Of a stretch of 34,601 bases of DNA, positions 1 through 13,490 are shown in pieces. This DNA is from Geodermatophilaceae bacterium (GTDB lineage Bacteria; Actinomycetota; Actinomycetes; Mycobacteriales; Geodermatophilaceae), in assembly GCA_013695685.1 (NCBI GenBank), contig JACCZY010000201.1, positions 1 through 34,601 on the forward strand. The letters run 5' to 3'. The position numbers and the translations under genes are program-made. Numbering within the stretch: the first letter of the stretch is position 1; the number at the start of each line of letters is the position of its first letter. The notes below the pieces were generated by a model, which searched no databases, had not been told where the DNA came from, and saw only the letters and a program-made list of their open reading frames with translations.

Positions 1-909
1 GTACCGCTCGACGGCGGCCACCCGGGCCGCCTTGCCGGCCAGCCGCGCTGCCTCGGGGTCGGCGATGAACCGGCGTACGGCGGCGTGCAGCCGCTCGGGC
101 CGCACGGAGACGCACCCGGCCTCCGGCGGGACCGCGTCCACCGCCTCGGTCGTAGCGAGGGCGACCACCGGCATGCCGAGATGCATCGCCTCCAGCAGTG
201 ACAGGCCGAGCGAGGTCCATCGCATCGGATGGACGTAGACCCGGCGGGCGGCGAGCAGGCGGTGCATCCGGTCCTGCCTGACATCCTCGTGCAGGGTGAC
301 CCGTGCCGGGTCGAGGTGGTACGCCTCGTGCAGCCCGTCGAGGCGCATCCCGAAGACGTCCAGGGGTGCCGCGTCGGACAGCCCGCCGAGCAGGTCGGTG
401 CCGGTGACCCGGTGCCGGCGGATCGGCTCGTTGACCACGACGGCTGCCCGCGGCAGCTCACCGGTCCACTGCTCGCCCGGATCGACGATCCCGTGCTCGA
501 TGACCTGGACCGGAGCCTGTCCGTTGTCCCAGAACAGGGAGTTGAAGTGGGTGACGTGCGCGACCGGGATGTCGCTGCGATCGGCCATCGGGTGCCTCGT
601 GGACGGCACGTCGCCCTTCGGTGTGTTGTGCTCCAGGTACACGGCCGGGACATCCACGCCCGGCCGGCGCCCCAGCCAACGCCGGACGAGGTCGGCCTCG
701 TGCGGGCGCTGCAGGACGACCAGGTCGATCGGCTCGTCGTGCAGGTTCTCGGCCGGCACCTCGCGCACGTTCGGCGGCCAGTTCCAACTCGCGGCCCGAC
801 CTCGTCCGTCGGGACCGCGGTCGGCGGTCAGCGGGAGAACGTAGTGGTGCCTGCCCTGGACGAACGACGTCGTCCACGAGCCGTGCACGTGCCACAGCAG
901 GATCCTCAC
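1..909 (-). CDS. Glycosyltransferase family 4-like protein (3' end truncated by window edge)
   Basis: Minus-strand frame open from GTG at 909 to the window edge: VRILLWHVHGSWTTSFVQGRHHYVLPLT...HEDVRQDRMHRLLAARRVYVHPMRWTSLGLSLLEAMHLGMPVVALATTEAVD; GT4-like 'GLSLLEAMHLGMPVVAL' donor-site motif. GTGA overlap with the upstream gene stop (906-908). Not listed in the ORF track because it runs off the edge. Confidence 0.85.
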   Translation of the reverse strand, partial: MRILLWHVHGSWTTSFVQGRHHYVLPLTADRGPDGRGRAASWNWPPNVREVPAENLHDEPIDLVVLQRPHEADLVRRWLGRRPGVDVPAVYLEHNTPKGDVPSTRHPMADRSDIPVAHVTHFNSLFWDNGQAPVQVIEHGIVDPGEQWTGELPRAAVVVNEPIRRHRVTGTDLLGGLSDAAPLDVFGMRLDGLHEAYHLDPARVTLHEDVRQDRMHRLLAARRVYVHPMRWTSLGLSLLEAMHLGMPVVALATTEAVDAVPPEAGCVSVRPERLHAAVRRFIADPEAARLAGKAARVAAVERY

Positions 910-1919
910 GCCGGATCACCGGCCAGCTTGCCGACCGCGGCGACGACATCCTGGGCGGTCACCGAGCTCAGGCAGGGATGCCCCGGAACCGGGCACACTC
1001 GCGCCCGCGTGCCGGCGCACGCCGCGTCCTGATCGCCGAGCAGCACATGCTCCACGCCGTACGGCGCCCAGCGGATCGCCGGCACGACCGGAGCGAACAA
1101 CGACACGACCGGGGTCCCGACGGCGGCGGCGAGGTGCGCCGGTCCGGTGTTGCCGACCACCACGGCGGCCGCCCCGGCCAGCACGGCCGCCATCTTCGCC
1201 AGGGTCGTGGCGCCACCGAGGTCGATACCGCGGCGACCGGCCACCTGCCGGGTGAGGGTGCGCTCCGACGGTCCACCGGTGACGGCAACCCGCCAACCGG
1301 CGTCGCTCAGCGCGTCGACCGCCGCGGCGCAGCGTTCGGCCGGCCAGGCGCGGGCGGGGACGGACGCGCCTGGGTGCAGCACGACGTAGGGGCCGTCGGG
1401 TTCCAGCGGGGATGGCGGCAACGGCCGGCGTACGGCGAGCCGCCCGTCGTCACCATCGGGCAGGTCGTACCCGGCGGCACGGGCAAGGGACAGCGCCCGC
1501 TCCGGCTCGGGCTGGTCGTCAGTGCTCTGGTGGCGTACGTCGAGAAGCGAGCCCGGGTAGTCCGAACTGATCGCGGCGATCCGGGGGACCCCGGCCAGCC
1601 GGAGCAGCAGCGCCAGCGGCAACGGCGACTGGTGGAACGAGGTGAGGATCAGCGCCTCGTCCATGGCCTGCTCCGCGATCGTGTCGACGAGCCGCCGGGT
1701 GTCCTCGAGGGTGACCGGCGGCGGCTCGGCGACGATCCACGGGCAGCGCCAGGTCAGGACCCGGGTGACGCCCGGCAACAGACCGGCCGCGTCGGCGCCG
1801 TGCGGCCCGGCCAGCAGGACCACTTCGTCGGCGCCGGCCGCCACCGCGCGAACCGCGGGACCGGCCAGCAGGACGTCTCCGGCGTTGTCCAGCCGGGCGA
1901 CAAGCACGGTGCGGGTCAC
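906..1919 (-). CDS. Glycosyltransferase family 9 (ADP-heptose:LPS heptosyltransferase-like)
   Basis: VTRTVLVARLDNAGDVLLAGPAVRAVAA... VVLHPGASVPARAWPAERCAAAVDAL... GNTGPAHLAAAVGTPVVSLFAPVVPAIRWAPYG; typical GT9 motifs. The ORF track start (2036) is upstream; GTG 1919 fits the conserved N-terminus. Confidence 0.88.
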   Translation of the reverse strand: MTRTVLVARLDNAGDVLLAGPAVRAVAAGADEVVLLAGPHGADAAGLLPGVTRVLTWRCPWIVAEPPPVTLEDTRRLVDTIAEQAMDEALILTSFHQSPLPLALLLRLAGVPRIAAISSDYPGSLLDVRHQSTDDQPEPERALSLARAAGYDLPDGDDGRLAVRRPLPPSPLEPDGPYVVLHPGASVPARAWPAERCAAAVDALSDAGWRVAVTGGPSERTLTRQVAGRRGIDLGGATTLAKMAAVLAGAAAVVVGNTGPAHLAAAVGTPVVSLFAPVVPAIRWAPYGVEHVLLGDQDAACAGTRARVCPVPGHPCLSSVTAQDVVAAVGKLAGDPA

Positions 1920-1953
1920 CGTGCCGCCTCGCTGCCCTGGCGGGCTGATCGCG

Positions 1954-3426
1954 TCACCAGCCAGCTCCAAGCAGTACGTCGGCGGCTTCGCGCAGGTCCC
2001 GGACCGTGCGTGGGGCAGCGGCAACTTCCTCGGCACGGGTCCGGGCGGTAGGCACCAGCAGGGCGGCGGCCCCGGCTGACAACGCTGCCTGTACGTCGGA
2101 GCCGATGTCGCCCACGACGACGCACCGCTCCGGCCGGACGTCCAGCTGCTGACAGGCCCGATGGATCATGCCGGACGCCGGCTTGCGGCAGGCGCAGCCG
2201 TGCTCGGGCCCGTGCGGGCAGAACTCCCAGGTGCCGAACTCGCCGAGGAGGTGGCTGATCCGGGCGTTCACCGCCATCACGTCGTCAGTGGTGAGCAGCC
2301 CCCGGGCGACGCCGGACTGGTTGCTGACGACGCCGAGGCGTACCCCCGCGTCCCGGAGCCGGTCGCACGTCTCCCGAGCGTGCGGCATCAGCTCGACCCG
2401 GTCCGGGTCGCCGTTGTACGGGATGTCGACGACCAGCGTCCCGTCCCGGTCGAAGAGCACCAGCTCCGGAAGCCCCCGCCAGGCTGGCGCCTTCCGATGC
2501 CGGACCGCACCTCGCAGCGTGTGCCACGTCGCCGCGAACGGAACGGCGATGCTGGTCAGCGCCATCGTGATGACCTCGTCGCGGGTGCGCGGCCCGGGCC
2601 GCAGCCGGGCGGCGAGTAGCTCGCCGATGCCTGCGGCGGTGACGGCGGCAGCCACCGCTGCGGGCCGCGGTCGCCGCAGCACCGCGCAGACGAGCGCGGT
2701 CAGTGCGGAACCGGTGATGGCCGCGTGCCGCCGGCGGCGACCCTGGGGCGCACCGGTCAGCTGCCGCCAGTCCGGGCCGTGCAGCCGGCGCATGAGCATG
2801 TCGTCGGCGTTCCCCGCCTGCTGCCGCGCGCTGACCCACCGATCCGCGGGGCGCACCGGGTGGGTGGTGCGGCGTCGGGCCACGACGAGGCGGCCGTGCT
2901 GCTGCACCCGGAGCGCGAGATCGGCGTCCTCGCGGAAGGCCCGCGGGAACCGCTCGTCGAAGCCGCCTACCGCCGCGAGCGCGTCTCGGCGGTAGGCCAT
3001 GTCGGCGGTGATCCAGCGCGACGTCGCCAGTCCGGCGGTGCCGCGCTCCCAGTCGCTGGGCCGCCGGTCCGTCGGCAACGGCACCCGCAGCCTCGCCTGG
3101 CTACCGGCCACGTCGTTCGGCAGCCCGGTCAGGTCCGCGCGCAGCGCCTCCCACCAGTCGAAGTCCGGGAGAACGTCGTCGTCCAGGAACGCGACCCACT
3201 CGCTGGTGGCGTGGCGCCAGCCGACGTTGCGCGCGGCGGCCGGCCCGCGGCCGTGGCTGCGCAGCACGCGGACCTTGTGGCCAGCCACATCAAGGGGTGA
3301 GCCGCCGGGACGGTCGTCCACGACGATCACCTCGTCGGCGCGTGGCCCGGTCGCCTGGTCCAGCCGGGTGAGCAGAGCCGACAAGGTGGGCCTGCCGACG
3401 GTGGGGATGACGACCGTGCAACTCAT
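1954..3426 (-). CDS. Bifunctional GT2 glycosyltransferase / HAD-IIIA phosphatase (heptose-1,7-bisphosphate phosphatase-like) fusion
   Basis: MSCTVVIPTVGRPTLSALLTRLDQ...VAFLDDDVLPDFDWWEALRADL (GT2), then LVLFDRDGTLVVDIPYNGDPDRVELMPHARE...CPHGPEHGCACRKPASGMIHRA...VVVGDIGSDVQAALSAGA (GmhB/HisB-N-like HAD). ATGA overlap with the upstream carbamoyltransferase stop at 3423. Confidence 0.87.
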   Translation of the reverse strand: MSCTVVIPTVGRPTLSALLTRLDQATGPRADEVIVVDDRPGGSPLDVAGHKVRVLRSHGRGPAAARNVGWRHATSEWVAFLDDDVLPDFDWWEALRADLTGLPNDVAGSQARLRVPLPTDRRPSDWERGTAGLATSRWITADMAYRRDALAAVGGFDERFPRAFREDADLALRVQQHGRLVVARRRTTHPVRPADRWVSARQQAGNADDMLMRRLHGPDWRQLTGAPQGRRRRHAAITGSALTALVCAVLRRPRPAAVAAAVTAAGIGELLAARLRPGPRTRDEVITMALTSIAVPFAATWHTLRGAVRHRKAPAWRGLPELVLFDRDGTLVVDIPYNGDPDRVELMPHARETCDRLRDAGVRLGVVSNQSGVARGLLTTDDVMAVNARISHLLGEFGTWEFCPHGPEHGCACRKPASGMIHRACQQLDVRPERCVVVGDIGSDVQAALSAGAAALLVPTARTRAEEVAAAPRTVRDLREAADVLLGAGW

Positions 3427-5075
3427 GCCGGATCGCCGTGCCGACCCGCGCATCGGCGTACGACGAACGGTCCGATGGCCAGCAGGTCGACCGGGGCGGA
3501 CCCGAAGCATTCGAGGGCGTCGCGGGGATCGTCGACCATCGGGCGACCGACTGTGTTGAGGCTGGTGTTGACCACGACCGGGAGGCCGGTCCGGTCGGCG
3601 AAGCGCTCCAGCATCCGGGCGACCAGCGGCTCCTTGCTGCGGTCGACCGACTGGATTCGCGCTGTACCGTCGACGTGGACGACGGCGGGGATCCGCTCGC
3701 GCCACTCCGGCGCGACGTCGTGCACGAAGAGCATGTACGGCGAATCCAGCGGTCCGCGGCTGAAGATCTCGCTGGCGCGCTCGGCCAGAACCATCGGTGC
3801 CACCGGCCGGAACTGCTCGCGGCCCTTGACGTCGTTGAGCCGTTCCAGGTTCCCGGCGTACCCGGGATGTGCGAGCAGCGACCGGTGACCGAGCGCTCGG
3901 GGACCGTACTCGCTGCGGCCCTGGAACCAGGCGACCACGCCGTTCGCGGCGAGGCAGGCGGCGACGGCGTCGGCGACGTCGCGGGGACGCTCGAAGGCGA
4001 CTGCCGCGGTGGTCAGCCACGCCTCGATCTCCTCGTCGGTCCAGCCCCGCCCGAGGTCGGCACCGGGCATCGGCTGGATCCGGTCGCCGTCGGCGGCGGC
4101 GACGTGCAGCGCGCCGCCGAGCGCCGTACCGGCGTCCCCGGCGGCCGGCTGCACCCAGACCTGCTCGAACGGGGACTCCACGGCGATCCGGGTGTTCGCC
4201 ACGCAGTTGAGTGCGACTCCGCCGGCGAGGGTGAGCGCGCGGTCGCCGGTCTGCCCGTGCAGCCAGCCCGCGAGTTCGAGCAGCACCTCCTCCAGGCGCA
4301 GCTGCACGCTGGCGGCAAGGTCGGCGTGGTCCTGGGTCCACTGCTCACCCTTGCCCAGGCGCTTGACCAGGCTGCTCCAGTCGATCGGCTGGGTGCGGAA
4401 CCCGCCGTTTCCGGTGGTGTAGACGGCCTCACGCAGTTCGGGAAGGAAGGTCGGACGGCCATATGAGGCCATCGCCATGACCTTGAACTCGTCGGAACTG
4501 CGCAGGAACCCGAGATGCTCGGTCACGTCCTCGTAGACCAGGCCAAGGGAGTGCGGCAGCTCCTGGCTGGCCAGGATCTGCAGCTCGCCGTCGTCGTACC
4601 GGCCGGCGAGGTGGCTGACCGCCTCACCTCTGCCGTCCAGGACGAGCACGCTGGAGGAGCGGTACGGCGCCGCGAGCCCGGCCGAGGCGGCGTGCGCGAC
4701 GTGGTGCGGTACGAAGCGCACGGTGGCCGGGTCCAGGCCGGGCAGTGCGGTGGCGAGAAAGCCGGGCGCCTTGGCGGCGTACATCAGCCTGAGGTGGTCC
4801 CACGGGTCGTCGAGCCTCATCTCGGCTGCCGGGCGGGCGAGGGCAGGGTCGAACGAGTACGCGACGGCGTCCAACTCGGAGGAGTCCAGGCCGGCGTGCG
4901 CGAGGCACCAGGCGGCGGCCTGCTCGGGCAGTTCCCACGCGCTGAAGGGGACCGGGCGCTTGCCATGCTTGCGCCGGCTGAACCGTTCCTCCTCCGCGGC
5001 GGCCACGACCTCACCGTCGACGACCAGCGCCGCCGCGGGGTCGTGAAAGATCGCGTTGATCCCAAGCACCCGCAT
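3423..5075 (-). CDS. Carbamoyltransferase, NodU/CmcH (TobZ-like) family
   Basis: MRVLGINAIFHDPAAALVVDGEVVAAAEEERFSRRKHGKRPVPFSAWELPEQAAAWCL...GGVALNCVANTRI...FQGRSEYGPRALGHRSLLAHP; hallmark NodU/CmcH motifs. Start ATG at 5075. Confidence 0.95.
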   Translation of the reverse strand: MRVLGINAIFHDPAAALVVDGEVVAAAEEERFSRRKHGKRPVPFSAWELPEQAAAWCLAHAGLDSSELDAVAYSFDPALARPAAEMRLDDPWDHLRLMYAAKAPGFLATALPGLDPATVRFVPHHVAHAASAGLAAPYRSSSVLVLDGRGEAVSHLAGRYDDGELQILASQELPHSLGLVYEDVTEHLGFLRSSDEFKVMAMASYGRPTFLPELREAVYTTGNGGFRTQPIDWSSLVKRLGKGEQWTQDHADLAASVQLRLEEVLLELAGWLHGQTGDRALTLAGGVALNCVANTRIAVESPFEQVWVQPAAGDAGTALGGALHVAAADGDRIQPMPGADLGRGWTDEEIEAWLTTAAVAFERPRDVADAVAACLAANGVVAWFQGRSEYGPRALGHRSLLAHPGYAGNLERLNDVKGREQFRPVAPMVLAERASEIFSRGPLDSPYMLFVHDVAPEWRERIPAVVHVDGTARIQSVDRSKEPLVARMLERFADRTGLPVVVNTSLNTVGRPMVDDPRDALECFGSAPVDLLAIGPFVVRRCAGRHGDPA

Positions 5076-5262
5076 CGACACGCCCCTCGACATCGCATCT
5101 GTGGCCAAGGCCGTCGTACGGCCCGGAGAGAAGATGCCCTGGGGAAGCGCTTCGAAACGCTTCTCGGCAGAACCGCTTCTCCAGCCTACCCCTCGTAGCT
5201 GCCCCAGGAGCCCCGCCAGCCTCACCCGTCCCGCCAGCCCCACCCCTCCCACCTTGCCGGAC

Positions 5263-5353: not shown

Positions 5354-6703
5354 TTAGGCGGGGGCGGTGCCGGTCTCCCCCAGGCGGGCGAGCAGCAGGC
5401 TCTCGGCCAGGCAGCAGCGGCCGAACATACCCAGGTGCAGGCTCTCGTTCGGGCCGTGCGCGCGGGTGTCCGGATCCTCGACGCCGGTGATCAGGATCTC
5501 CGCGTCGGGCAGCAACTCGGCGAACGCGGCGATGAAAGGGATGGACCCGCCGACACCGATGTCGACGGCCTCGGTTCCCCAGGCCTGCTCGAAGGCCCAG
5601 TGCGCCGCGTCGTACGCCCGGCCCGACGTCGCTGCCGTGTACGGCGATGCGGTCCCTTTCGCGGTGACCGTCACCCGGGCGCCCCACGGCGCGTTCGACT
5701 CCAGGTGCGCGATCAGTGCCGCCTGCGCACGGATCACGTCGTCGCCGGGGGCCACCCGCAGGCTGATCGCGGCCCGCGCCGCCGGGAGCAGCGTCGGGGA
5801 GGCGTCGGCCACGGTCGGCGCGTCGATGCCGATGACCGTCACCGCCGGCCTGGACCACAGCCTGTCGGTCAGCGAGCCGCTGCCGATCAGGTGTACGCCG
5901 TCGAGCACGCCGGCATCGGCACGCAGCTGACCCTCGGTGAGTTCCGGCGCGGCCGACGTACCGGCGACAAGCCCTCGTACGGCGACGTTGCCCTCGACGT
6001 CGTGCAGCGTTGCCAGCAGGCGGCACAGCGAGGTGAGCGCATCGGGGACCGCCCCGCCGTACATCCCGCTGTGGACCGCGTGATCCAGCGTGCGGACCTC
6101 GACGGTGACGTGGTTGCCGCCGCGCAACGACGTCGTCAGCGCCGGTACGTCGACCGTCCAGTTCGTCGAGTCGGCGAGGATCACGACGTCAGCGGCCAAC
6201 CGCTGCGCGTACGTGGTCAGGAACTGGCGCAGGGTGGGGGAGCCGATTTCCTCCTCGCCCTCGATCAGCACGACGACACCCACCGGCAGTTCGTCACCGA
6301 GAGCCCGCAACGCGGCGAGGTGCAGGGCGATCCCGGCCTTGTCGTCGGAGGCGCCGCGGCCGAACAGCCGCCCCTCCCGTTCCTCGGGTGCGAACGGGTC
6401 GCTCGCCCAGTCCGACCTCGCGCCGACGGGTTGTACGTCGTGGTGCGCGTACAGCAACACGGTGGGTGCTCCGGGTGGCGCCGGTCGACGGCCGACGACG
6501 GCGGGCTGCCCGCCGTCCACAGTGAGGATCTCGACGTCGCTGAGGCCCGCAGCGCGCAGCAGCGTCGCGACCAACTCGGCGCTCGCGGCCATGTGCTGAC
6601 CAGCGGCGGGGTCGGCCGAGACCGACGGGATCCGCACCATCCGTTCCAGGTCGGCTCGCACCGACGGCATCACCTTGGCAACCGACTCGCGCACGGACTC
6701 CAT
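5354..6703 (-). CDS. M20/M25/M40 family metallo-peptidase (dipeptidase-like)
   Basis: MESVRESVAKVMPSVRADLERMVRIPSVSADPAAG...VLLYAHHDVQPVG...LFGRGASDDKAGIALHLAALRAL...VLIEGEEEIGSP; canonical M20 metal-site motifs. Confidence 0.95.
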   Translation of the reverse strand: MESVRESVAKVMPSVRADLERMVRIPSVSADPAAGQHMAASAELVATLLRAAGLSDVEILTVDGGQPAVVGRRPAPPGAPTVLLYAHHDVQPVGARSDWASDPFAPEEREGRLFGRGASDDKAGIALHLAALRALGDELPVGVVVLIEGEEEIGSPTLRQFLTTYAQRLAADVVILADSTNWTVDVPALTTSLRGGNHVTVEVRTLDHAVHSGMYGGAVPDALTSLCRLLATLHDVEGNVAVRGLVAGTSAAPELTEGQLRADAGVLDGVHLIGSGSLTDRLWSRPAVTVIGIDAPTVADASPTLLPAARAAISLRVAPGDDVIRAQAALIAHLESNAPWGARVTVTAKGTASPYTAATSGRAYDAAHWAFEQAWGTEAVDIGVGGSIPFIAAFAELLPDAEILITGVEDPDTRAHGPNESLHLGMFGRCCLAESLLLARLGETGTAPA

Positions 6704-6734
6704 GGGACTGGACGTTACCCAAGCGGCCGTGGCC

Positions 6735-7952
6735 TCAGCCGGCGTAGAGCTGCAGCTCCGAGGCGAAGCGGTCGGCGACGTCGATGGTCCGGGACAGCTC
6801 GTACTCGCGGATTATTATCATGCCGTCGGAGATCAGCGTCGCCCGCCAGTCCCGGCGGTGGGCGCCCACGGGCAGCAGATCGAGTGCGGCGACGGAGCCG
6901 CCGCATTCGGACAGGAGCCGGTCCAGCCCGTCGTGGCGGGTGATGCAGCCGGAGCCAATGGCGCGCTTGAAGATGCTCGCCGCGTTGTAGCGCCGGTCCA
7001 GCTTCTGCGAGATGCGCCCGTCGACGACCGCCTCAGCCCAGCCGGTGAACAGGTCGGCGTCGGTCACGTAGTTCATCAGGTCGACGGTGCGGCCGCCGGG
7101 CGGCCTGGCGCCGATCTCACCGAAGACCACCTCACCATCGGCCTTGTTGTACCACTCCATGTGCGTGAAGCCGTCCCGGAATCCGAGAGCATCGATCACC
7201 GCCGCTCCGAGCGCCCGGCCGCCGGCAAGGTCCGGCACGGACAGGTCGCGCAGAGCGATCGTGATCGGGCTGATCCACTCGTGCGAGTGCGCCTGTAGCG
7301 GCCGCGGCCGGTACCAGCAGATGTTCTCGAACAGGATCTGCCCGTCGGCGCAGACCGTGTCATACGTGAACTCCTCGGCCTCGATGAACTCCTCGACGCT
7401 GACCCGACGTACGTGCCGCAGCATGGGCAGGACGTCGTTCAACTCACCGACGGAGTCCACCCGGTAGGTGTCCGCCGACCCCGCCCCGTCGATCGGCTTC
7501 ACGATAAGCGGGAAGCCGATCCGCTCGGCTGCCGCCCAGACCCCGGCCACCGTCCCGGTGCTCTCGTGCCGCGGTGTCCGCAGGCCGGCTCGGTCCAGGA
7601 CCGTCTTCATCAGCTCCTTGTCCCGGAACGGCTCAGTCTGGGCCCGGTTGAGGCCTGGCAGCCCGAACTCCTCGCGCAGTCGCGCCGCGAGCATCATGTA
7701 CGGCTCCCACAGGCACTCGATCTGGTCGATCCGCACGTGCCGGCTCAACTCGTGCGCCGTGTGCAGGACCGCGGCCTCGTCGGCCAGCGACTCCACGTGC
7801 ACATGATGAGCCAGCGCCTCGCGGGCTGTGGCGGGCAGCGCGGAGGCCGGCTGGTCACCGAGCCCGATCACAGTTGCGCCGACCGCTGCCAGACCGCGGG
7901 TGAAGAAGGACATCTCCGCCGGGAACCCCGGCGACACCATGAGGACGTTCAT
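6735..7952 (-). CDS. ATP-grasp domain ligase (paralogue 1)
   Basis: MNVLMVSPGFPAEMSFFTRGLAAVGATVIGLGDQP...FRDKELMKTVLDRAGLRTPRH...GFPLIVKPIDGAGSADTYRVDS...VSVEEFIEAEEFTYDTV...FTHMEWYNKADGEVVFGEIGARPPGG; ATP-grasp fold motifs. Start ATG at 7952. Confidence 0.92.
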   Translation of the reverse strand: MNVLMVSPGFPAEMSFFTRGLAAVGATVIGLGDQPASALPATAREALAHHVHVESLADEAAVLHTAHELSRHVRIDQIECLWEPYMMLAARLREEFGLPGLNRAQTEPFRDKELMKTVLDRAGLRTPRHESTGTVAGVWAAAERIGFPLIVKPIDGAGSADTYRVDSVGELNDVLPMLRHVRRVSVEEFIEAEEFTYDTVCADGQILFENICWYRPRPLQAHSHEWISPITIALRDLSVPDLAGGRALGAAVIDALGFRDGFTHMEWYNKADGEVVFGEIGARPPGGRTVDLMNYVTDADLFTGWAEAVVDGRISQKLDRRYNAASIFKRAIGSGCITRHDGLDRLLSECGGSVAALDLLPVGAHRRDWRATLISDGMIIIREYELSRTIDVADRFASELQLYAG

Positions 7953-7968
7953 CGCTGACCCTCCCACC

Positions 7969-8038
7969 ACTTTGCCTGTCGGCCGGCCGCGAGCGGGTTC
8001 GAAATGTCCGTTCTGCGGGGCCACCCGACAGGCAAAGT
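7969..8038. repeat. Inverted repeat element between two ATP-grasp genes
   Basis: Perfect 14-nt inverted repeat ACTTTGCCTGTCGG (7969-7982) / CCGACAGGCAAAGT (8025-8038), 42-nt spacer, inside the 100-bp intergenic space. Confidence 0.75.
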
Positions 8039-8052
8039 CGCGGTGTGGGCGG

Positions 8053-9273
8053 TCATTCCAGCTCCACCCGTACGCCGTTGATCAGCCGCCGCAGCGCCTG
8101 GGTCACGACCGGGGTCTCGGCATGGCGGACCGTCACGAACCCGTCGCCCTCGTAGATCCCGGACGACATCCGTCCCGGCTGCGGCAGGCTGGCGTCGACG
8201 ATCAGCGGCCCGATCTCGCGCTGCACTTCGGCCAGCCCGTGTACGGCGGTGATCCGGCCGCTGCCCTGGCCACGCAGGAACGCCGTACCCACAGCCCATC
8301 TGCGCGACGGCGGATCGAAGCTGCCGTACACCTGCAGCTGCGCCCACGCGCTGTACAGATCGAAGTCGTGAGCGAGGTTCAGCATCGACGAGATCTGGGC
8401 GCCGGGAGGGCGGACGGCCACCTCGGAGATCGCGACCGACCCGTCCGGGCGGCGGAACCACTCCAGGTGCGTGAACCCGGTCCGCAGCCCCAGGGCGCGC
8501 AACGCCTGCGGAACGACGGCCCGTACGCCGTCGTACTCCGGGCCGTCGATGTGCCGGGGAAAGAGCACCAGCCACTGGATCCACGGGTTGCGCAGGACTT
8601 CAAGTGGCGTCGGAATGTAGTTGGAGATCGAGTGCCAGACGAGTTCGCCGTCCACGAGGACGCTGTCGAAGGACCCCTCGTCTCCGGTGAGGAACTCCTC
8701 CATCATCGCTACCCGATCCGGGGCAGGCGGGGCGGTCGACAGCCAGACCCGCAGTTCGTCGGCGTCGTCGAGGCGGAACGTGCTCTTCGCGCCGGCGCCG
8801 GCCGGCGGCTTGACCACGATCGGGAAGCCGACCTCGGAGGCGAAGCCGTACGCCGCCTCCGCCGAGTCGGCGAGCCGATGTCTGGCGCACGGCACCCCGG
8901 CGGCCCGCCACACCGACTTCATCTGCGCCTTGTCCCGGAAGTTGTGTGCAGTGCCGACGTCCATGCCGTCGATGCCGAGGTGCTCGCGCACCTGGGCGAG
9001 CTGCACCTGAAGCTGCTCGAGTACGCCGATCACCCGGCGTACCGGCCCGAGCTGACCGGACAGACCCCGGACCGCGTCGACGATCTGACCGGCGTCGAGC
9101 CCGTCGTCGATCCGCCAGTGACCGATCAGCTGATTTCGTAGTGGGGCGGGCACCTGCTCCAGTGGTTCGCACGTCACCAGGGCGAGCTGCACGCCCGGCA
9201 GCCGCGCGGCCGCCTCGACGAAGCGCCTCGTCGTCTCGAGCAGGTACGGCGCGACGAACGCAACCACCGCCAT
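8053..9273 (-). CDS. ATP-grasp domain ligase (paralogue 2)
   Basis: MAVVAFVAPYLLETTRRFVEAAARLPGVQLALVTCEPLEQ...FRDKAQMKSVWRAAGVPCARH...GFPIVVKPPAGAGAKSTFRLDD...VAMMEEFLTGDEGSFDSVLVDGE...FTHLEWFRRPDGSVAISEVAVRPPGAQ. Confidence 0.92.
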   Translation of the reverse strand: MAVVAFVAPYLLETTRRFVEAAARLPGVQLALVTCEPLEQVPAPLRNQLIGHWRIDDGLDAGQIVDAVRGLSGQLGPVRRVIGVLEQLQVQLAQVREHLGIDGMDVGTAHNFRDKAQMKSVWRAAGVPCARHRLADSAEAAYGFASEVGFPIVVKPPAGAGAKSTFRLDDADELRVWLSTAPPAPDRVAMMEEFLTGDEGSFDSVLVDGELVWHSISNYIPTPLEVLRNPWIQWLVLFPRHIDGPEYDGVRAVVPQALRALGLRTGFTHLEWFRRPDGSVAISEVAVRPPGAQISSMLNLAHDFDLYSAWAQLQVYGSFDPPSRRWAVGTAFLRGQGSGRITAVHGLAEVQREIGPLIVDASLPQPGRMSSGIYEGDGFVTVRHAETPVVTQALRRLINGVRVELE

Positions 9274-9306
9274 GATCGCGGGACTCTACCGCTGCTGACG
9301 ACTGAA

Positions 9307-9370
9307 TGATCACATCGGGGATGTTGTTGCGGTTTGGCCCAATTCGGCAACCACAACCCCGAGATGATCA
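9307..9370. repeat. Imperfect palindromic element in the divergent promoter region
   Basis: Left arm TGATCACATCGGGGATGTTGTTGCG (9307-9331) vs reverse complement of right arm GGCAACCACAACCCCGAGATGATCA (9346-9370): 20 of 25 positions match. Confidence 0.65.
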
Positions 9371-9392
9371 CCGGTGCGAAGCCGATAGGCGC

Positions 9393-9413
9393 TGCCTGGA
9401 TAGCATCCAGGCA
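9393..9413. promoter_or_regulatory. Perfect palindrome, candidate operator upstream of ATP-grasp 3
   Basis: TGCCTGGAT-AGC-ATCCAGGCA, 9-nt perfect arms, 3-nt spacer, 40 bp upstream of the ATG at 9454. Confidence 0.45.
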
Positions 9414-9453
9414 TGGTGGGGACCCCGCCCCGCTCCCGGCCGGAGCGGGTCAG

Positions 9454-10677
9454 ATGAACGTCGTACTTGTCGAGCCGTTCTTCCCGTCCAACCAGCGCCA
9501 GTTCGCGGGCGCACTCGCCGAGGTGGGCGGCACCGTCATCGGCGTCGGCGAGACCCCCCTGTACGGGCTCGACGACCAGCTTAAGGACTGGCTCACCCAC
9601 TACGAGCAGGTGTCGTCGGTGACCAACGTCGAGGCGATGACCCACATCGTGCGCTCGATCCAGGACAAGGTGTGGGTGGACCGGCTCGAGGCGACCGTGG
9701 AGGCACACACGACGGCCGCGGCCAAGGTGCGCGAATCGTGCGGAATCCCCGGTACGTCGGTGCGTACGGCGTGGCTGTGCCGGGACAAGCCGTCGATGAA
9801 GCAGGCGCTGCGCGAGGTCGGCGTACCGACTGCCGCCTCGACCGCCGCCGGGACCGCCGCGGAGGCGCACGCCTTCGCCGAGCAGGTCGGCTTCCCCCTG
9901 ATCCTCAAGCCGCGCAGCGGCGCCGGCGCTGCGGACACGATGCGGGTCGACGACGACGCCCAGCTCAACCGGGCACTGCTGGGCTACGGACGGCAGGGCG
10001 TCGGGTCGATCGCGGTGGAGGAGTTCGTCGAGGGCCACGAGGGCTTCTACGACACCCTCGCCGTCGATGGTCAGGTGGCGCTGGACTTCGTCTCGCACTA
10101 CTACCCGAACGTCCTGGAGGCGATGCGCACCCGGTGGATCTCCCCGCAGTTCGTCTGCACCAACCGGGTCGAAACGGTCCCGGAGTACGGCGAACTGCGC
10201 GACATGGGGCGACGGGTCATCGCCGCCCTCGGCATCGGTACGTCGGCCACCCACATGGAGTGGTTCTTCGGCCCGAAGGGCCTCAAGTTCTCCGAGATAG
10301 GCTGCCGGCCACCGGGCGTCGGCGCGTGGGACCTGTACTCGGCCGGCAACGACGTCGACCTCTACCGCGAGTGGGCCAACGCGATAGTGCACGGGCACGT
10401 CGGCGCCGCCCCGTCCCGGCGCTTCGCCACGGGCATCGTCGCGCTGCGGCCGGAGGCCGACGGGCGGATCCAGGGCTACAGCGGAGTCGAGGAGCTGCAG
10501 CAGCAGTTCAGTGACTGGGTGATCGACGCGCACCTGCCGAGCGTGAACTCGCCGACCCAGCCGGTCGAAGCCGGCTACATGGCCAACGCCTACGTGCGGA
10601 TGCGCCACCCTGACTACGACACGCTGCGCGGGATGCTCGACACGGTGGGACGCACCCTGCACGTGCACGCGGCGTGA
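9454..10677 (+). CDS. ATP-grasp domain ligase (paralogue 3)
   Basis: MNVVLVEPFFPSNQRQFAGALAEVGGTVIGVGETPLYGLDDQLKDWL...CRDKPSMKQALREVGVPTAAS...GFPLILKPRSGAGAADTMRVDDD...IAVEEFVEGHEGFYDTLAVDGQ...ATHMEWFFGPKGLKFSEIGCRPPG. Internal start at 9454 chosen by alignment with paralogue 1 and upstream GGAG. Confidence 0.92.
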   Translation: MNVVLVEPFFPSNQRQFAGALAEVGGTVIGVGETPLYGLDDQLKDWLTHYEQVSSVTNVEAMTHIVRSIQDKVWVDRLEATVEAHTTAAAKVRESCGIPGTSVRTAWLCRDKPSMKQALREVGVPTAASTAAGTAAEAHAFAEQVGFPLILKPRSGAGAADTMRVDDDAQLNRALLGYGRQGVGSIAVEEFVEGHEGFYDTLAVDGQVALDFVSHYYPNVLEAMRTRWISPQFVCTNRVETVPEYGELRDMGRRVIAALGIGTSATHMEWFFGPKGLKFSEIGCRPPGVGAWDLYSAGNDVDLYREWANAIVHGHVGAAPSRRFATGIVALRPEADGRIQGYSGVEELQQQFSDWVIDAHLPSVNSPTQPVEAGYMANAYVRMRHPDYDTLRGMLDTVGRTLHVHAA

Positions 10678-11603
10678 CGTTCCCGGTCGTGCTGTTGGGG
10701 CCGCAACGCACGCCCACACTCGACATGGTGGTGCAGTCGATGGACCTCAACGGCCGGTTCGCCACGATCACCGCCGGCTGGCTGGAGCGTGAACCCGACG
10801 ACGAGGAACTCGACGACCAGCTCGACGGGCGCGGTGTCAACCTTTCGCTGTACGCCCGCTGGCTCGACGTACAGGAACGCGACCCGGAATTCGCCGCAGC
10901 CGAGCGCCGGCTGCGCGCCGTACTCGACGAAGTGCAGGAGCTGTACCTCCTGCGACTCGACCACGGACTCGCTGCGGTGCACGACGTCCGACGCGGCGGG
11001 GAACCCGGTCCGCTGCACGCCGCCGCGGTGACCGAGGCGATCGACGCGGTCCGCGCCCTCGACGAGCAGCACCTGGCGCGGATCAACGACGTACACAACG
11101 AGTTCTACGAGCTGTGGCCGCCGCACGAGCGCCCGGTGATCGCCCATCACCGGGCAGAGGTCGCGCGGCTGCTGGAGGACGCGGCTGCCCTGATCGTCAC
11201 CGGCGGCCACGTCGGTGTCCTCGTGAACGCCATGCACCTGTTCAACGTGTCGGCATCCCTCGGCACGCCGGTGATCGCCTGGTCCGCCGGCGCGATGGCA
11301 CTGACCGACCGGATCGTGCTCTTCCACGACCGCTCGGTCCGCGGGCCCAGCAATCCCGAGGTGTACGGGCGCGGGCTCAGCCTGCTGCGAGACGTCGTAC
11401 CGCTGCCGCACGCCAGCGCTCGCCTGCTGCTCGAGGATGCCGACCGGATGTCGGTGTTCGCCCGCCGGTTCGTACCGGCTCGCTGTGTGCTGCTGGAGGC
11501 GGGTACCCGGGTGGACACCGGCAGCGGTGGTTCCTGTCCGGTCGGCACCCGAGTGCTGGCCGAGGACGGCCGGGTCGCGGTTCTGGAAGCCGCATCAGCG
11601 TGA
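10674..11603 (+). CDS. Type-1 glutamine-amidotransferase-like / peptidase S51-like (cyanophycinase-fold) protein
   Basis: MTFPVVLLGPQRTPTLDMVVQSMDLNGRFATITAGWLERE...ALIVTGGHVGVLVNAMHLFNVSASLGTPVIAWSAGAMALTDRIVLFHD; GGH and nucleophile-elbow-like WSAGAMAL resemble S51/type-1 GATase-like proteins. ATGA-type overlap with ATP-grasp 3. Confidence 0.72.
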   Translation: MTFPVVLLGPQRTPTLDMVVQSMDLNGRFATITAGWLEREPDDEELDDQLDGRGVNLSLYARWLDVQERDPEFAAAERRLRAVLDEVQELYLLRLDHGLAAVHDVRRGGEPGPLHAAAVTEAIDAVRALDEQHLARINDVHNEFYELWPPHERPVIAHHRAEVARLLEDAAALIVTGGHVGVLVNAMHLFNVSASLGTPVIAWSAGAMALTDRIVLFHDRSVRGPSNPEVYGRGLSLLRDVVPLPHASARLLLEDADRMSVFARRFVPARCVLLEAGTRVDTGSGGSCPVGTRVLAEDGRVAVLEAASA

Positions 11604-12760
11604 GCGGGCCGACGTTCGGCCGCAAGCTCGCCATCAACCGGCTGCGCGAGCGCCGGTCGCTCGACGGTGCAGCCATCGACCGCTTTCTGGCCCGGCACGA
11701 CGTCCCCATCGTCGAGGGATCTCGGTGCACGTTCGTCCACCGCGGTGAGGCCGACGAGGTTCAGCTCATCCATCGAACCGTCGGCCTGCCCGAACAGCTC
11801 CCGATGGCGCGGATCGGGGGTACCGACCTCTGGTACGTCGTGGTCGAGCTGCCGGAGGGCTCCCGGTTCGAGTACCAGCTGGAAGTCGCCATCGACGGGC
11901 GCCGGGATCGCTTCAACGACCCGCTGAACCAGCGGCTGGCCCACAGTCCGATGGGCAGCACGTCGGTGTGCTATGCCCGCGGCTACCACATACCGGAATG
12001 GACCCAGCCGCATCCGGAGGCGCGGCCCGGAGAACTGCTGGACCTCGTCGTACCGAGCCGGGCGCTGCGCCGGGACACCGACGTCGCGCTGTACCTTCCA
12101 GCGCGGTTCCGGCGCTCTGCCCGCTACCCGCTGCTCGTCGTCCATGACGGCGGTGACTTCCTGCACTACGCGTCGATGAGAACGGTTCTGGACAACCTCA
12201 TTCACCGCCTGGATGTCGCCGAGACGATCGTCGCGTTCGTCAACCCTGCGGACCGCCTGGTCGAGTACGCCAACTCCGCGGCGCACGCCCGATACCTGAC
12301 AACCGAGCTCGTGCCCTCCCTGGAAGCGGACTTCCCGCTTCTCGGGACCCGGGCTGGCCGCTGCCTGATGGGGTCGAGCTTCGGGGCGGTTGCGGCGTTG
12401 TCGGCGGCGTACCGGTATCCGGCGTTCTGCGCCTCGCTGATCCTGCAGTCGGGTTCCTTCGTCTTCACCGACATCGGCAACGACCACGGCGGGGGACCGG
12501 TCTTCGAGCCGGTGGTGCGTTTCGTGAACCGGTACCGTGCCACCGCGCGTCGAGTCGCCGACCGCATCTTCAGCAGCTGCGGGGTCTACGAGCCGCTGAT
12601 CATCCCCAACCGCTCGATGGTGCACACGTTCGAGAGTGCGGGAATGGCCGTCCGGTACGTCGAGGCCCGGGACGGGCATAGCTGGGAGAACTGGCGGGAC
12701 CGCCTGCAGGAAGGGTTGTCATGGATCTATCCCGGACCACAGAAGTACTTCTATGAGTAA
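11600..12760 (+). CDS. Enterochelin-esterase (Fes)-like alpha/beta hydrolase with N-terminal E-set-like domain
   Basis: VSGPTFGRKLAINRLRERRSLDGAAIDRFLARHDVPIVEGSRCTFVHRGEADEVQLIHRTVGLPEQLPMARIGGTDLWYVVVELPEGSRFEYQLEV...YPLLVVHDGGDFLHY...GRCLMGSSFGAVAALSAAYRYPAFCASLILQSGSF; GSSFG nucleophile elbow. GTG overlaps the previous stop. Confidence 0.82.
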   Translation: MSGPTFGRKLAINRLRERRSLDGAAIDRFLARHDVPIVEGSRCTFVHRGEADEVQLIHRTVGLPEQLPMARIGGTDLWYVVVELPEGSRFEYQLEVAIDGRRDRFNDPLNQRLAHSPMGSTSVCYARGYHIPEWTQPHPEARPGELLDLVVPSRALRRDTDVALYLPARFRRSARYPLLVVHDGGDFLHYASMRTVLDNLIHRLDVAETIVAFVNPADRLVEYANSAAHARYLTTELVPSLEADFPLLGTRAGRCLMGSSFGAVAALSAAYRYPAFCASLILQSGSFVFTDIGNDHGGGPVFEPVVRFVNRYRATARRVADRIFSSCGVYEPLIIPNRSMVHTFESAGMAVRYVEARDGHSWENWRDRLQEGLSWIYPGPQKYFYE

Positions 12761-13490
12761 CGGCGTGAAGGCATCCGAGCGCTGGTACTCCGACCGGCTG
12801 CAGACCGAGATCAACCTGGTGCGCTGGGGGACGTTCGGCCGTCCGGTGCTGGTCTTCCCGACCGCCGGCGGGGACGCCGAGGAGATCGAGCGGCACGGCC
12901 TGGTCGACGCCTGCGGACAGCTGCTCGCCGACGGTCGGGTGAAGCTGTACTCCGTCGACAGCGTGGCCGGCCGGGCGATGATGACCAAGCCCGGGTCGCC
13001 GCAGCACCGGCTGTGGCTGCTCAACCAGTTCCACGAGTGTGTACGCCGGGAGATCGTCCCCGCGGTCCACGCCGACCTCGGCGGTCAGGAGCAGGGCATC
13101 ATCGCCAGCGGGGCGTCGATCGGCGCGTTCAACGCCGTGGCCGTCCTGTGCCGGTACCCCGACGTCTTCGCCGCCGCGATCGGATTGAGCGGCAGCTACA
13201 CGATCGAACGCTTCTACGACCGGCCATGGACGAAGGATCTGTACTTTTCCGCGCCGCTGCAGTTCCTGCCCGGCCTCGAGGGCTGGCAGCTGGACCTGCT
13301 CCGTCAACGGTTCGCCCTGCTCGCCTCCGGTGCGGGTCAGTGGGAGAACGTCGGGGAGTCCTGGGCCATGGCGGGTGCGCTCGGCGCCAAGGGGATCCCC
13401 AACCGCGTGGACAACTGGGGTCCCCAGTGGGACCACCAGTGGCCGACGTGGTGGCGGATGCTGCCGCAGTACCTCGACGAACTCGCCTGA
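12753..13490 (+). CDS. Esterase family protein (alpha/beta hydrolase, EstA/Ag85-like fold)
   Basis: MSNGVKASERWYSDRLQTEINLVRWGTFGRPVLVFPTAGGDAEEIERHGLVDACGQLLADGRVKLYSVDSVAG...GIIASGASIGAFNAVAVLCRYPDVFAAAIGLSGSY; GASIGA nucleophile elbow. 8-bp overlap with the previous CDS. Confidence 0.82.
   Translation: MSNGVKASERWYSDRLQTEINLVRWGTFGRPVLVFPTAGGDAEEIERHGLVDACGQLLADGRVKLYSVDSVAGRAMMTKPGSPQHRLWLLNQFHECVRREIVPAVHADLGGQEQGIIASGASIGAFNAVAVLCRYPDVFAAAIGLSGSYTIERFYDRPWTKDLYFSAPLQFLPGLEGWQLDLLRQRFALLASGAGQWENVGESWAMAGALGAKGIPNRVDNWGPQWDHQWPTWWRMLPQYLDELA

Follow-up and report, generated by a model that had tools for sequence, protein, structure and literature searches.

A cross-phylum cassette of ATP-grasp ligases, an S51-like protein and two esterases: a candidate NRPS-independent pathway, possibly glucan-linked

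Known amide-ligase systems and the layout of the locus

The NAGGN osmolyte system combines an ATP-grasp ligase, an amidotransferase and a peptidase to make a small peptide solute; unlike the cassette described here, it has a single ligase and no esterases. The L-amino-acid ligases (4wd3, BL00235, BacD) are single-domain ATP-grasp proteins of ≈ 400 aa that work either alone or two together in small pathways to dipeptides. More generally, linked amide ligases and peptidases have reportedly been predicted to make small metabolites, an arrangement of the same general kind as ours. The title of a survey of ATP-grasp/peptidase neighbourhoods (Iyer et al. 2009) is cited in PMC8939145. Linked ATP-grasp ligases and peptidases are a known general kind; the exact gene set studied here was not described in the literature that we searched, most subscription papers and the 2009 amidoligase survey being outside the reach of that search.

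The DNA analysed (the window) is a 34,601-nt contig, JACCZY010000201.1, of a Geodermatophilaceae bacterium. The cassette occupies positions 5354-13490 and has the following features, the last of which was found by a genome search and lies on another contig:

5354-6703, minus strand: M20 dipeptidase-like gene, a lineage-specific accessory outside the core
6735-7952, minus strand: AG2, ATP-grasp ligase, 405 aa; core; own cross-phylum clade of 56 (support 1.0)
8053-9273, minus strand: AG1, ATP-grasp ligase, 406 aa; core; own clade of 52 (support 1.0)
9274-9453, no strand: divergent intergenic region of 180 bases between AG1 and AG3, presumed site of both promoters
9454-10677, plus strand: AG3, ATP-grasp ligase, 407 aa; core; own clade of 69 (support 0.96)
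10674-11603, plus strand: S51-like protein, 309 aa, carrying a helical insertion; core; neighbour of Est1
11600-12760, plus strand: Est1, Fes/CE1-like esterase; core; conservation of 97% or more at the GxSxG Ser, the Asp and the His
12753-13490, plus strand: Est2, divergent esterase, 245 aa; core; conservation of 97% or more at the GxSxG Ser and one His
Contig C109, 4048-5271, same genome: AG4, divergent ATP-grasp protein

With refined starts, this is the gene order originally predicted (AG2, AG1 and M20 in the minus arm; AG3, S51-like, Est1 and Est2 in the plus arm). The overlapping start and stop codons that had been noted in the plus arm are present at all three of its junctions: the S51-like start overlaps the AG3 stop via GTGA, the Est1 start overlaps the S51-like stop in the same way (GTGA), and the ATG of Est2 lies 8 bases inside the 3' end of Est1. 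In the same-genus genome L018, ≈ 2.5 kb (5704-8216) with a 528-codon frame separates AG1 from AG3, where the window has 180 bases.

The M20 gene is of the PRK07907 type (615.8 bits; cut-off 300). Its identity and its place beside the ligases agree with the prediction that made it a cassette member; its presence in 7 of 17 actinobacterial loci and in none of the other loci places it outside the core. It is adjoined by a NodU/CmcH-type carbamoyltransferase gene (window 3423-5093, minus strand), which is kept in a same-genus genome (L018/L067) and does not belong to the wider cassette. The M20 peptidase, the carbamoyltransferase and NMO were rejected as core parts because none recurs outside actinobacterial lineages, and no single extra gene stood out in the gaps of the actinobacterial loci. 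Positions 1-4341 of the window (minus strand) encode GT4 and a heptosyltransferase (GT9), with upstream frames resembling a GmhB-like phosphatase and GT2; this stretch looks like a separate glycan island.

The accessory genes differ elsewhere. GCS2-type ligases and HutG-like and AstE-like amidohydrolases join the cassette mainly in Myxococcota, where the GCS2-type ligases carry CBS domains. The M20, HutG-like and AstE-like families each include zinc deacylases of N-acyl amino acids, so one may speculate that the cassettes have an N-deacylation step in common. A defence system was ruled out, since no core protein matched PADLOC.

Predicted ligases and hydrolases of the core

When AG1 was compared with the whole genome, it matched AG3 (E 1.4e-59) and AG2 (E 4.6e-53) over most of their length, and the next best match reached only 5.5e-6. 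Judged by sequence, AG1-AG3 are thus true ATP-grasp paralogues related beyond chance, as had been proposed. The three motifs said to be shared occur in all of them, with a slight departure in the AG2 signature, which reads FTHMEWY...GEIGARPPG (Y replaces F and G replaces S). Pfam and NCBIfam assign AG1-AG3 only broadly to the ATP-grasp enzymes, and no NCBIfam model reached its cut-off. A profile comparison with the PDB, which covered AG1 and AG3, gave the L-amino-acid ligase 4wd3 as the top match of both (E 1.7e-30 and 1.8e-24, respectively). Purine and biotin carboxylase enzymes, with which the ligases might have grouped, scored well below L-amino-acid ligases (NCBIfam for all; PDB for AG1 and AG3), and this identity was discarded. 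K153, E191, E269, E282 and R286 of AG1 (trimmed numbering) and their AG2 and AG3 equivalents are at least 97% conserved; from general knowledge of the fold, we take them to be the ATP- and metal-binding Lys, Glu and Arg residues. AG1-AG3 are predicted carboxylate-amine ligases of the L-amino-acid ligase group. AG1 and AG3 resemble the described members of that group in size and single-domain build; the cassette differs from their pathways in that four ligase clades stand beside esterases and an S51-like protein, and in that none of the ligases reaches a curated NCBIfam cut-off.

The fourth clade, AG4, came from clustering of neighbouring frames, in which this divergent ATP-grasp family appeared in 24 of the 30 loci found with the S51-like protein. 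The three ligases of the original prediction are real, but the core has four. The predicted model of AG4 (pLDDT 81.8) has a fold like D-Ala-D-Ala ligase (Ddl) and ArgX, and in the window's genome a GCS2-type ligase lies ≈ 4 kb from it. Just before AG4 on contig C109 (L054:2974-4035, plus strand), radical-SAM-like pieces occupy two overlapping frames, which look like an assembly frameshift or a decayed gene.

AG1-AG4 are all single ATP-grasp proteins of 405-413 aa with conserved ATP-grasp residues. A phylogeny of the paralogues, as had been proposed, was built with FastTree from 267 ligases; AG1, AG2, AG3 and AG4 were each monophyletic (supports 1.0, 1.0, 0.96 and 1.0), the ligases having been sorted into the four groups by best profile beforehand, which favours monophyly. 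The clades cross phyla and have long stems. Since each ligase forms its own clade spanning phyla, all four would appear to have separate, old jobs. Second copies of AG1 and/or AG2 lie close to the cassette in two Myxococcota-group loci (L034 and L036), which suggests product variants.

The S51-like protein scored 18.3 bits against Pfam S51, under the cut-off of 23.9. Its assignment to S51, doubtful by that score, is upheld by the fold: all 15 best PDB matches of the predicted model (pLDDT 90.4) are S51 enzymes (cyanophycinase, peptidase E), with probability 1.00. The WSAGA nucleophile region of these enzymes is found in most S51-like members. The family differs from them by a long inserted helical region, by its Pfam score and by a catalytic Ser and His that are not universal. 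Both residues are present in the window's protein. The nucleophile Ser is replaced by A, G or T in 10 of 98 members, with the gene still beside Est1, and at the position equivalent to His-246 another residue stands in 21 members of the Myxococcota group and in all 8 of the Gammaproteobacteria group. The Ser-less proteins may be pseudo-enzymes or use a different mechanism. Because of these replacements, the hydrolase role first given to the S51-like protein cannot be assumed, even though the S51 fold agrees with it. Set against the conserved ligase residues, this variability makes the four ligases look indispensable and distinct; S51-type hydrolysis does not look so.

Both predicted esterases exceed the Pfam Esterase cut-off of 22 bits, Est1 clearly (69 bits) and Est2 barely (23.8 bits). 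The nearest relatives of Est1 are enterochelin esterase (Fes) and CE1 carbohydrate esterases, the latter with glucan-binding-type N-domains. Est1 is, however, far under the Fes equivalog cut-off (80.6 versus 222 bits) and by that score is not an equivalog of the enterobactin-utilisation enzyme Fes; the cassette contains no siderophore genes. Fusions between core families were limited to one S51-Est1 read-through frame (L124) and one doubled S51 match (L140).

Joint inheritance of the core genes

Querying named genomes with the S51-like protein alone gave 30 loci under record titles such as Geodermatophilaceae, Nocardiopsis, Myxococcales, Polyangia, Woeseiaceae and Planctomycetota, and AG1, AG2, AG3, Est1 and Est2 were found around most of them. 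The group names used here are taken from such titles. Locus counts are conditional throughout because the loci were picked by S51 or AG4, and related genomes are not independent. Among loci having both partners, the S51-like gene and Est1 are same-strand neighbours in 94 of 95, and so are Est2 and AG4 in 60 of 67. Where the cassette is split within a genome, the halves are typically AG4-Est2-AG1 and AG2-AG3-S51-Est1.

The association extends to whole genomes. Full-length AG4 was present in 15 of 16 genomes with the S51-like protein; all 20 genomes with full AG4 and no S51 gene beside it carried one elsewhere (E 1.7e-73 or better), and none of 20 AG4-less genomes had S51 at 1e-10. Mirror-tree correlations (r 0.38-0.86; 0 of 200 permutations) agree with joint inheritance, but we give them little weight because shared organism ancestry yields the same signal. 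AG1-AG4, the S51-like protein and both esterases form one inherited unit in at least four phyla, with members in Actinomycetota, Myxococcota, Planctomycetota and Gammaproteobacteria; the homologues of the window's cassette do co-occur across genomes, as the original prediction required. A distant relative of AG4 (E ≈ 1e-106 to 1e-114) occurs in two planctomycete-group loci, L149 and L150 (genomes G1143 and G1179), with only a distant S51 elsewhere; these loci are possibly a sister system.

The frequency of the cassette varies widely. AG4 was found in 79 of 284 genomes of the phylum to which the Polyangia genome of L021 belongs (E 1e-160 or better) and in 33 of 249 genomes of the phylum of the Planctomycetota genome of L028 (1e-140 or better). 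In the class of the L031 genome it was found in 1 of 321, namely the query genome itself. The S51-like protein was present in 6 of 398 Actinomycetota genomes, the window's genome among them.

That these genes are chance neighbours without joint function is very improbable: the flanking carbamoyltransferase, NMO and M20 genes do vary outside the genus, but the odds that a 20-kb window includes a particular single-copy gene by chance are only ≈ 0.4%, and both the cross-phylum co-occurrence and the genome-level correlation contradict this explanation.

A candidate pathway and its alternatives

Retention of the set in at least four very different bacterial groups makes a specific peptide-like product, perhaps sugar-linked, very probable. 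We estimate at roughly 60% the probability that the cassette encodes a multi-step, NRPS-free pathway assembling a defined peptide-like molecule and, likewise, that the two operons in the window are the principal ones of this pathway, for which we found no earlier description. In its favour are the cross-phylum co-occurrence and gene order, the genome-level pairing of AG4 with S51, the four ligase clades, the conserved ligase and esterase residues, the nearest solved relatives (L-amino-acid ligases for AG1 and AG3, Ddl/ArgX for AG4) and the gene overlaps. Each ligase would activate a carboxylate as an acyl phosphate and join it to a different acceptor, so that the four together could build a defined molecule of several such bonds. 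Est1 and Est2, judging from their esterase families, may cut or transfer an ester intermediate; they are the sole pointer to the ester-linked parts that had been proposed for the product. The S51-like protein, encoded beside Est1, may bind or trim an intermediate held by an amide link. The product or its anchor probably receives glucose from a dedicated GT5 in Myxococcota, Planctomycetota and Gammaproteobacteria; in the window's lineage, which lacks GT5, the glucose step would be omitted or performed by another transferase. The differences between phyla in the neighbours GT5, GCS2, HutG, AstE and M20 count against this pathway, as do the absence of the Ser from 10 of 98 S51-like proteins and the sorting of the ligases by profile ahead of the tree.

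The GT5 genes bear on the strongest alternative. Outside Actinomycetota the cassette often comes with its own glycogen-synthase-like GT5 glucosyltransferase and a GCS2-type ligase. We found GT5 genes in 38 cassette loci. Those linked to the cassette, among them copies that adjoin AG3 where the cassette is split, group in a single clade of 40 (support 0.89). Other GT5s sampled from these genomes, several of them located with GlgC or GlgB, fall outside it. By the ADP-glucose-type glgA model, the cassette GT5 scores as a member, and in 27 of the 36 loci that have AG3 and GT5 the two are same-strand neighbours. About 10 planctomycete-group loci have GlgC, GH57 or debranching genes nearby, and in the actinobacterial locus L058 the full set (GlgC, GlgA, GlgB and GH57) is interleaved with the cassette. 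As a pattern in the genomes of three phyla, the link to glucan is real; its chemical side is putative.

Taken together with the resemblance of Est1 to carbohydrate esterases with glucan-binding-type N-domains, these observations favour modification of an alpha-glucan or glucoside, in which a ligase-built amino-acid or peptide group would be put on a glycogen-like glucan or on a GT5-made primer and the esterases would edit ester-linked groups. Even so, we hold it to be the less probable account: GT5 is absent from the window's genome, which has a GlgM-type synthase on another contig, and the GT5s of L058 and L119 fall outside the cassette clade. Attachment to a glucan or glucoside is, tentatively, the leading special case of the peptide-like pathway. 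In its full form, a multi-phylum pathway with four or five amide ligases and its own glycogen-synthase paralogue, making a glucosylated or alpha-glucan-linked peptide-like molecule, is a possibility at the same low level.

If the ligases made an amino-acid storage polymer that the S51-like protein broke down, the system would be analogous to that of cyanophycin, whose synthesis also uses ATP-grasp ligases. The match of the S51 fold to cyanophycinase and the glycogen genes near some loci fit such a polymer; the S51 Ser and His that are not universally conserved do not, nor do the four single-domain ligases, which lack the two-ligase architecture of CphA. The polymer is unlikely: four ligases, each conserved in its own right, fit a defined product better than a repeat. 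The original proposal of synthesis and turnover of a non-ribosomal peptide-like metabolite or storage polymer thus stands as to the co-inherited ligase/hydrolase system, with the polymer as its weaker half. A cyanophycin system proper was ruled out: CphA, with its ATP-grasp and Mur-ligase domains, is missing, and the NCBIfam cyanophycin synthetase model scored ≈ 30 against a cut-off of 850.

We consider it equally improbable that the ligases have a protein, carrier or precursor peptide as their target, in the manner of ArgX with LysW or of graspetide synthetases with their peptides. The AG4 model does match ArgX as well as Ddl, and successive action of the ligases on a single carrier would likewise account for the conservation of all four. 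AG1 and AG3, however, are most like free amino-acid ligases, and neighbouring frames of at least 80-100 codons included no conserved short gene that might be a graspetide-type precursor.

The preferred pathway to a defined peptide-like product would matter beyond this genome. AG4 occurs in more than a quarter of the sampled genomes of the Polyangia-record phylum (79/284) and in about one-eighth of those of the Planctomycetota-record phylum (33/249), so that a conserved metabolite may be going unnoticed. Since the candidate enzymes are given by the cassette itself, which is small enough to be expressed in a laboratory host, its product can be tested for directly. The presence of a glycogen-synthase paralogue dedicated to the cassette hints at an unexpected junction of amide-bond chemistry and glucan metabolism; if the glucan-linked reading were true, it would represent a class of bacterial glycoconjugate or reserve compound as yet undescribed.
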